Positions 3,335-5,067 of a stretch of 33,449 bases of DNA are shown here, piece after piece. Below the pieces are notes generated by a model, which saw only the letters and a program-made list of their open reading frames with translations, made no database searches and was not told the DNA's origin. Within the stretch, counting starts at the first letter, position 1. The number at the start of each line of letters is the position of its first letter. The stretch comes from an uncultured Dehalococcoidia bacterium (GTDB taxonomy: Bacteria; Chloroflexota; Dehalococcoidia; Lucifugimonadales; Lucifugimonadaceae). The translations under genes and the position numbers were made by a program. Location: positions 1-33,449 of the forward strand of contig CAJXEJ010000024.1 in NCBI GenBank assembly GCA_913052475.1. The letters run 5' to 3'.

Positions 3335-3517
3335 TCGATTGCCGGTCAATAACTAATCTCTAATTTCATTAGCTGAGTTCGCTGGTTTGAGTGCATCGAC
3401 GAATGCCATCATAAATCTTCTCCTTGCAGGGGAACTTTAAAATTCGCTGCAAAGTGGGGGAGTTTAGCTTGCAGAGCGCAAGTCGAAGTTACACGCGAAC
3501 GAAAACGAGCGATCTTA

Positions 3518-4405
3518 TTGGCTTTGAAAGTCCACGATCCGTTATTCGCCCATCCTAGCGAATCAGAATTCGCGCAAATTCTCGACTTCTACGGAATCGA
3601 GTGGGACTACGAGCCGGCCTCGTTTCCGACCGAGTATGACGGCGAGCGGGTGGTCGAAATGTTCACCCCGGACTTCTATTTACCGCAGATGGATCTCTAC
3701 ATCGAACTCACCACGCTCAAACAAAGCCTGATCACCAGGAAGAACCGGAAGCTTCGGCGAATTCGAGAACTCAACCCCGATATCAACATCCGGCTTCTTT
3801 ACCGACGCGATTTTCATCGGCTGATGGCCAAATTCGGATTCGGCCCACTGGGTGCTTCCGAAACGCCCGTGCTCGATCGAGTGCTGTTTGGAACCGGACA
3901 AATCGCTATACGGGTTGGTGAACTCGGAAGAGAAATATCTACCGACTACGATGGCAAAGATCCCGTCCTCGTCGGCGTGCTGCGTGGCGTCTTCTGCTTC
4001 ATGGCCGACCTCATACGCCAGACATCGGTGCCAATGTCGGTCGATTTCATGTCGGTTTCGTACTACGAACACGACGAAACGACCGTCAAGATCACGAAAG
4101 AGCTCGATATCGATCTTGAGGGCCGACATGTCCTAATGGTCGAGGACATTGTCGACACGGGCATGACACTGAACTATCTGCTGGAGTATCTACGATCGAA
4201 GAATCCAGCAAGCCTCGAGGTGTGCACGCTACTCGATAAAAAAGCCCGACGACTGACCGATCCAGAGCTGAAGTACGTTGGGTTCGAGGCTCCCGACGAA
4301 TTTGTGGTCGGCTACGGACTCGACTACATAGAGGAGTACCGCAATTTACCGTTCATCGGCAGCTTGAGGGTGGACGCTGGCGACGCAGCAAATAAAGCCA
4401 AATAA
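3518..4405 (+). CDS. hpt: Hypoxanthine phosphoribosyltransferase with N-terminal PD-(D/E)XK-like domain
   Basis: The C-terminal domain (residues ~115-285) is a purine salvage phosphoribosyltransferase converting hypoxanthine/guanine plus PRPP to IMP/GMP. It shows LVGVLRGVFCFMADL at 151-165, MSVSYYE at 178-184 and the PRPP loop VEDIVDTGMTL at 208-218. At 295 residues the protein is about 110 longer than ordinary HPRT. The extra N-terminal part contains ILDFYGIEWDYEPASF at 21-36 and TPDFYLPQMDLYIELTT at 50-66, a pattern like Vsr/TnsA/DUF559-type restriction folds (Asp52, Glu63). The usual ExK lysine position is Thr65, with Lys68 nearby. The start is TTG at 3518 with a weak ribosome site; another TTG lies at 3524. 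The HPRT call is firm and the N-domain fold is an inference. Confidence 0.9.
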   Translation: MALKVHDPLFAHPSESEFAQILDFYGIEWDYEPASFPTEYDGERVVEMFTPDFYLPQMDLYIELTTLKQSLITRKNRKLRRIRELNPDINIRLLYRRDFHRLMAKFGFGPLGASETPVLDRVLFGTGQIAIRVGELGREISTDYDGKDPVLVGVLRGVFCFMADLIRQTSVPMSVDFMSVSYYEHDETTVKITKELDIDLEGRHVLMVEDIVDTGMTLNYLLEYLRSKNPASLEVCTLLDKKARRLTDPELKYVGFEAPDEFVVGYGLDYIEEYRNLPFIGSLRVDAGDAANKAK

Positions 4406-4407
4406 AT

Positions 4408-4607
4408 AAGCCCCAAGTGACCTCGGCTCTTCTGCTATTACTGAACTCTTCATTCAGGCTTGCGCCTGCCTTCCGAAATCCAGCTCCGAATTCTTTAACT
4501 CCGACGTTAATCTTCGTTTCAGAGTCCAGAACTTATATCTTTCACTTGGGTTTGCACCCTCATTCCAGTTACAAGTCTTAGCGTAGTGCTTCGACCTCTT
4601 GGGACCT
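4408..4607 (-). ncRNA. Putative structured non-coding RNA, about 200 nt, family unknown
   Basis: Reading the minus strand, the 5' end AGGTCCCAAG (4607-4598) pairs over ten positions with the 3' end CTTGGGGCTT (4417-4408), followed by an AT-rich tail. Inside are GGGT-GCAA-ACCC and CAGGC-GCAA-GCCTG, two hairpins closed by GNRA tetraloops. A third hairpin has arms GACTCTGAAACG and CGTCGGAGTT, and a helix CTGGATT/AGTTCAG encloses the second GCAA hairpin. No ORF fits. A promoter lies at the right distance upstream. I see no RNase P, tmRNA or SRP signature sequences. A 6S-like RNA is conceivable, but the shape is more branched than a 6S rod. Confidence 0.55.
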
Positions 4608-4614
4608 GCACAAA

Positions 4615-4642
4615 ATTAATCACACCGCATTCGGGGTGTCAA
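4615..4642 (-). promoter_or_regulatory. Promoter of the putative ncRNA
   Basis: On the minus strand a perfect -35 box TTGACA (4642-4637) is followed after 16 bases by ATTAAT (4620-4615), four of six matches to the -10 consensus. The predicted start, six or seven bases further on, falls at 4608-4607, exactly where the closing stem of the RNA candidate begins. Confidence 0.5.
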
Positions 4643-5067
4643 CCCATTTTCTACGATTATTCGATGTAGGACCGCATGTGAATAACTGATACCGCATTGA
4701 TTCGTTATATACAATTTTATTTCGTAGTATTTAATGGTATTTTTACGTTATTCGTTTTCACGCTCTGGGTTTGATTCTTAACCAGTTTCGAGTTTCGAAA
4801 CTGCATGGTTTGGACGAATTTTTTGATTCCGAGTTATCCACAATTTGCCAACAGTCCGGCCCTGTTCAAACTCTCGATATCGTGAAGTTTTTCACCGCAA
4901 GACTGACATCCGATTTTCACCAAAATGAGTTGTTTTTCGCGATTCTTCCTGCACCGGATCAGGCGTTTCTCTACTCGTTCTGGTAAGGAGAGATGGATCG
5001 CAGACAGAGATCCAAACGCGAAAACTCCCCACCTCAATCCGAGCAAGGAGTCTCCATGAGGAGTCAA
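4643..5067. other. Intergenic region, no convincing gene
   Basis: An AT-rich stretch (about 4680-4765) followed by mixed sequence. A 71-codon open frame on the plus strand at 4771-4986 has no recognisable domain and no ribosome-binding site, and I do not call it. Only the 3' side of a short imperfect hairpin near 5051-5066, after the small membrane-peptide ORF, stands out. Confidence 0.4.

Follow-up and report, generated by a model that had tools for sequence, protein, structure and literature searches.

The DNA analysed here, referred to throughout as the window, is a stretch of 33,449 nucleotides from an uncultured member of the Dehalococcoidia (Chloroflexota). Near its start, a phosphoribosyltransferase fusion gene and a predicted structured RNA lie tail to tail on opposite strands (Table 1). 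An earlier reading made from the sequence alone had placed the RNA convergent to hpt; the convergence stands, but plain hpt is not an adequate name for the gene, which is a fusion that ends in a phosphoribosyltransferase domain. Its N-terminus matches phage endonuclease I (PF05367) only weakly, with an E-value of 0.0021 that falls below the cut-off, and the version found in an inferred Dehalococcoides (L171) also has an N-terminal GAF domain. Several of these genomes have a second, short phosphoribosyltransferase gene as well.

Table 1 Features of the fusion gene and the predicted RNA, in window coordinates
Feature	Position	Strand	Remarks
Phosphoribosyltransferase fusion gene	3518..4405	+	Outside the RNA; PF00156, E 4.8e-27; fusion described over 3401-4405
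T-rich tail ATTTATTT	4400..4407	-	3' of the closing stem; overlaps the stop codon of the convergent gene
Predicted structured RNA, ~200 nt	4408..4607	-	From fold z-score and covariance model R3; ends predicted
Closing stem, 3' strand	4408..4421	-	Pairs to 4593..4607
Hairpin 2	4441..4483	-	Second copy of the GCAA/purine-loop module
Middle hairpin	4482..4533	-	Absent from the G010 homologue
Hairpin 1	4532..4575	-	GCAA tetraloop; stem with two purine internal loops, GGA/GAA and GA/AA
Closing stem, 5' strand	4593..4607	-	Family positions 1-13 are 4605-4593
-10 box ATTAAT	4615..4620	-	4/6 to TATAAT; similar position in the family
-35 box TTGACA	4637..4642	-	Exact TTGACA also in 75/84 scored distinct family members

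The principal elements described by the sequence-only reading were recovered on the minus strand. TTGACA (4642-4637) and ATTAAT (4620-4615) are separated by a spacer of 16 nt and lie upstream of a 10-bp stem in which AGGTCCCAAG (4607-4598) pairs with CTTGGGGCTT (4417-4408), while the two GCAA-tetraloop hairpins have the cores GGGT-GCAA-ACCC at 4559-4548 and AGGC-GCAA-GCCT at 4467-4456. When both strands of the closing stem are read, 12 of the 13 pairs typical of the family are formed in this copy. The minus-strand fold has an energy of -65.9 kcal/mol, as good as which only 1 of 200 shuffles folds (z -3.83), and the plus-strand fold of the same interval is unremarkable against shuffles (z -0.86). 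Seven open reading frames of at least 20 amino acids overlap positions 4408-4650, the longest being 54 amino acids on the plus strand and 35 on the minus strand, in agreement with the view that the element contains no long ORF. A terminator-like hairpin was listed at 4426-4413 on the minus strand, with two such sites found where 1.0 was expected in shuffles. The promoter was not listed by a consensus scan, its -10 box being poor, and it is convincing only because the family conserves it: the exact TTGACA hexamer occurs in 75 of the 84 members, among 85 distinct ones, for which a promoter could be scored. The proposal that the RNA has its own promoter thus gains support from its relatives.

The sole match to Rfam 15 at gathering score in the whole window was a tRNA at 700-782; the interval 4200-4900 searched under relaxed limits returned only sub-threshold, chance-level matches, and scans of relatives likewise gave the RNA no match at gathering score and only chance-level ones under relaxed limits. 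The element can therefore be regarded as an unassigned RNA, as first described. With cmscan, neither RNase P RNA nor tmRNA matched the window or the scanned relatives, and ARAGORN found no tmRNA in the window. Nor does the element carry a signature of signal recognition particle (SRP) RNA; a separate match to RF00169 is present in the window's genome (G000:C86:878-977, E 2.5e-15). RF00169 was found elsewhere in 18 of 26 genomes, including the window's own and that of its first relative (G010), and because a separate SRP RNA was found there, the RNA described here cannot be the SRP RNA in those 18 genomes. The model had no match in the remaining 8 of 26, five of which carry the new RNA (G046, G059, G078, G087, and G105). 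One may postulate that a known housekeeping RNA, whether SRP RNA, RNase P RNA, tmRNA, or Y RNA, was simply missed by the models, and the closed ends and compact size do recall SRP and Y RNAs. Given the separate SRP RNAs, the multiple copies of the new RNA in some genomes, and a TROVE (Ro) protein domain (PF05731) found in 0 of the 26 genomes, we consider this explanation to have almost no chance of being correct.

Direct DNA similarity across 40 related genomes gave one accepted match besides the window itself, in G010; eight other weak matches were inspected, and the RNA was present in none. The G010 RNA, ~105-115 nt long, is convergent to the same gene, and its TTGAC is spaced much as in the window. 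Compared with it, the window copy has ~90 nt extra, which correspond to the second GCAA hairpin module and the middle hairpin. Several pairs in the stem of hairpin 1 differ between the two (L035 in G010), and the predicted pairing is kept through compensatory changes. A profile of the two sequences gave weak matches in many Dehalococcoidia records, just 3' of the same gene and on the same strand, and these loci proved on reading to contain promoters, closed stems, and T-runs.

For a count of synteny, 80 fusion-gene loci from 118 relatives were kept, and in 63 of them the RNA and the gene face each other tail to tail, so that the convergent arrangement first seen in the window is conserved. Of these loci, 51 were recognized by sequence pattern (54 rows, less L041, L098, and L103, which were judged false), 10 by a scan for the stem and tail, and 2 at contig ends (L109 and L037). 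The scan required a site close to TTGACA, a 10-bp stem with every pair formed, and a T tail, and ignored all other sequence; it gave an antisense match past the gene in 55 of the 80 loci, compared to 9 matches in 934,098 bases of other sequence (an expectation of 0.0044 per window of the scan), a background that retains any real paralogues. No copy was detected at 17 of the 80 gene loci, one of which (L093) has just 19 nt after the gene. Within the window's genus, the full fusion gene occurs in 2 of 19 genomes, and the RNA is present in both. As a separate observation, the string CCGAATGRGGGTNNAARCCCAA recurs near position 1500 in three genomes of this genus (L008, L009, and L010), at seemingly corresponding places.

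Several model-based searches extended the family. Model R1 was built from the short type of the RNA and run on 294 genomes of the class, with 12 candidates scored per genome; it gave matches in at least 22 of the 294, which is an underestimate and not a prevalence because R1 missed the known copy in the window. The covariance model R3, whose input excluded the window and included its relative L035, recovers the window copy at 4402-4645 on the minus strand (41.4 bits, E 2.9e-7). R3 includes the promoter, and bare promoters also score. At E-values up to 0.1 it gave matches in 26 genomes, of which 15 were kept and 11 dropped (G041, G058, G080, G089, G098, G107, G123, G129, G156, G174, and G186). 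One locus was inspected per dropped genome; nine of these look like bare promoters, and two (G107 and G186) look like a different element. Further R3 matches in G058, G107, and G186 stand outside this inspection. Together with G096 and G105, which were recognized by reading gene loci, the 15 genomes kept make 17 carriers besides the window's own; of the 18 known carriers, 3 (G000, G096, and G105) escaped R3. A 182-nt member lies beside the fusion gene in G046, G059, and G087, which are single-contig genomes of one genus, inferred to be Dehalococcoides; the RNA also lies beside the gene in G078, G096, and G105, and in divergent form in G029. Outside the class, members were read in 8 genomes.

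Several genomes carry 2-4 copies, with four each in G152 and G273, where the sequences were read, and three each in G307 and G413 according to model R1. Copies also lie away from the fusion gene: no homologue of the gene was found in the flanks of 25 copies (~1.5 kb, less at contig ends), and by eye no neighbour is common to all 25, although one pair (L209 and L232) does share one. In this pair (genomes G068 and G159 of family f42, outside the class) the RNA is flanked upstream by a membrane protein gene that is similar in both and rhomboid-like by eye, and directly downstream by a 5S rRNA gene. At another locus (L150), a molybdenum/tungsten riboswitch at 1814-1928 lies ~155 nt downstream of one RNA copy and precedes a gene that by eye resembles a membrane transporter. 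Two genomes of family f40 (L218 and L220) have another TTGACA-promoted element, in which a GAGGAGC...GCTCCTC hairpin is followed by a long T-run; this element is unrelated.

The frequent proximity of the RNA to the fusion gene raises the possibility that it is a cis element of that gene, either an antisense 3' RNA or a shared terminator. Such a role would account for the conserved convergence, which extends to three of the genomes outside the class (L210-L212), where the RNA faces a homologous fusion gene, and for the co-occurrence of RNA and gene in the window's genus. The 25 copies with no homologue of the gene in their flanks argue against it, as does G152, in which none of the four copies lies beside the genome's own fusion gene (L178); moreover, the promoter and T-tail are on the minus strand. 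We therefore regard a cis role as highly unlikely. A riboswitch or other cis leader was also considered and rejected: copies at the gene are tail to tail with it, and by eye the 25 others do not share a downstream gene. Since copies in several genomes neighbour unrelated genes, and given also the multiple copies and those outside the class, we hold with good confidence that the family acts in trans.

Although the interiors vary, the ends of the RNA are consistent across the family. In 81 of 85 distinct members, at least 5 of the 10 bases that follow the 3' end are T, and promoter spacers of 15-18 were found in a search that allowed 15-19, so that this range is partly by construction. The RNA is ~80-270 nt long, mostly 100-160 nt, and purine-rich (66% G+A); fold z-scores average -4.97 in 40 of the 105 distinct members.

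Covariation, which had been proposed earlier as a check on the element, is evident in both the closing stem and the inner helices. In an alignment of 41 sequences (A5), 97.0% of the cells of the 13-bp closing stem are paired, 10 of the 13 pairs have changed on both sides compared to 4.9 in shuffles (0/500 shuffles as high), and 45 cells have both-side changes compared to 8.0; apart from pair types (1/500), none of the observed values is attained in any of the 500 shuffles. These shuffle figures are not probabilities because the shuffles keep no relatedness. A control that does keep it, in which the partner strand is shifted by one column, lowers pairing to 47-54%. Among 68 distinct stem pairs, a set that contains one truncated row (L139, removed from the 105-member set), 95.4% of cells are paired compared to 87.6% in shuffles (0/1000 as high). 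G-U pairs make up 78 of the 533 closing-stem cells of A5, which fixes the minus strand as the RNA strand because these pairs would be A-C mismatches on the other. The closing stem of one member (L043) is nearly palindromic. In an alignment of the short type (A3), pairing is complete (100%) in inner helices 2 and 3, and 5 of their 7 pairs have changed on both sides. Since the interiors of distant members align poorly, their homology rests on promoter, closing stem, tail, and position. Taken together, these results leave us nearly certain that the element in the window belongs to a real structured RNA family, and the earlier guess of a new class is supported by the lack of an Rfam match, the strong covariation, and the conserved synteny. 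No tested known RNA family claims it; the kind of RNA it represents in its working may still prove familiar.

Predicted folds are mostly unbranched, with a branch point in 20 of 105, and two motifs recur within them. GNRA hairpins are present in 71 of 105 members compared to 24.6 in shuffles, and a compact (A/G)GUA...GAAA module, which may resemble loop-E or sarcin-ricin-type motifs, is present in 42 of 105 compared to 4.0. The purine bias of the interior (38.5% G and 31.6% A) and the conserved purine strings in A3 would also suit a regulatory RNA that acts by base pairing, with mRNAs or 16S rRNA bound by unpaired purine stretches such as the Shine-Dalgarno-like GGGGAGGCAGAGG. A5 shows no long unpaired conserved segment, however, and the most conserved segment lies sealed inside the closing stem; we accordingly think base pairing with other RNAs quite unlikely to be the function. 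Protein binding is proposed instead because it is paired or purine-loop structure that recurs and not an exposed pairing sequence.

The sequence-only reading had also raised the possibility of a divergent 6S RNA. As a statement of homology this was not borne out: RF00013 matched neither the window nor the relatives in any Rfam scan run, the window's genome has no match over the cut-off (the best, at 18.7 bits, lies elsewhere), and Chloroflexota 6S RNA differs in sequence and composition. Among the matches listed (the first 12), Chloroflexota 6S RNA is 167-210 nt long, compared to mostly 100-160 nt in the family, and canonical 6S RNA is base-balanced, at 51% G+A in 16 matches, compared to 66%. 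As a sign of a large central bubble that mimics an open promoter, a two-sided loop of at least 8 nt was sought; it is found in 13 of 105 family folds and in 0 of 16 canonical 6S folds, a comparison in which predicted folds miss the bubble in 6S RNA itself.

The family could nonetheless be a replacement for 6S RNA, or an extremely diverged form of it, in which the rod would associate with RNA polymerase holoenzyme and modulate transcription when growth is slow. The rod closed end to end, with its consensus-like promoter and its ends paired in a long, covarying 13-bp stem as in 6S-type RNAs, fits such a role, and the distribution of canonical 6S RNA adds some evidence. At E-values up to 0.01, 34 of 151 Chloroflexota genomes have a match (28 over the cut-off), but it occurs in only 4 of 294 genomes of the window's class (L199, L200, L201, and L202; 3 over the cut-off), two of which have contamination of 5% and 9%. 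None of the 17 carriers besides the window's own, which are among the same 151 genomes, has a 6S match, giving P ~0.01 if genomes are treated as independent and ancestry is ignored. Retaining G058, in which canonical 6S RNA is present, gives one overlap and a probability of 0.066 for at most one overlap with 17 genomes. This pattern must be interpreted cautiously; the exclusion test takes no account of shared ancestry, and the overlap may be underestimated because R3 missed three known carriers. Considering also the differences in model match, size, and composition, we view a replacement or extreme divergence of 6S RNA as unlikely. A more specific scenario may also be postulated, in which an RNA unrelated to 6S RNA by descent took over its global role, or an equivalent one in binding RNA polymerase or the ribosome, where lineages lost 6S RNA, such that a rod rich in purines and composed of loop-E-like and GNRA modules would replace the open-promoter bubble; this we consider rather improbable.

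The explanation that we favour, with moderate confidence when taken as a whole, is that of a standalone Chloroflexota RNA family that acts in trans by binding a protein or ribonucleoprotein. Sequence comparison shows that a conserved sigma-70-type promoter sequence precedes an RNA of ~80-270 nt whose 5' and 3' ends pair in the 13-bp stem, which covaries and has a T-run after it. The RNA would be transcribed independently of its neighbours, and the closing stem may double as its terminator. Its interior is predicted to form a rod in which purine-rich loops separate short helices; a GNRA hairpin and the (A/G)GUA...GAAA module are frequent in it. An RNA of this kind would act in trans and not on the neighbouring gene; least certain of all is its putative protein or ribonucleoprotein partner, which it might bind as 6S or Y RNAs do theirs. 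Regardless of the partner, an RNA with a near-consensus promoter, multicopy in some genomes, spans a major environmental phylum, probably including cultured dechlorinating bacteria, yet is without an Rfam match. The family gives a defined transcript to seek in cultured strains, and it becomes directly testable what takes the place of 6S RNA in lineages without it.

Comparison with well-known small RNAs helps to place the family. 6S RNA is a standalone transcript with its own promoter, forms a long rod closed by pairing of its ends, and can be multicopy. The family RNA is likewise a standalone closed rod with its own promoter, but it has no match to the 6S covariance model (RF00013), its sequence is different, it is mostly shorter, and it is purine-rich; canonical 6S RNA, moreover, exists separately in other Chloroflexota, apart from this family. 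In Y RNAs the ends are sealed in a conserved lower stem, the upper part is variable, and the 3' end is short and U-rich; these traits are alike in the family, whereas no TROVE-domain partner was found in the genomes searched. The bacterial small SRP RNA is a closed rod of ~100 nt with a GNRA hairpin, and the resemblance in size, rod, and hairpin is set against the presence of a separate SRP RNA in most of the genomes searched. Among open-access papers in PubMed Central, we found no published description of the family. Chloroflexi-1 RNA (RF01698) is listed for Chloroflexus aggregans in PMC2864571, and it and the other candidates in that paper are likewise candidate structured RNAs of Chloroflexota, differing from the family in that the latter is without an Rfam match. 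According to PMC11109978, the rdhA motif is a structured RNA mostly from Dehalococcoides that lies upstream of reductive dehalogenase genes; the family described here instead consists of standalone RNAs.
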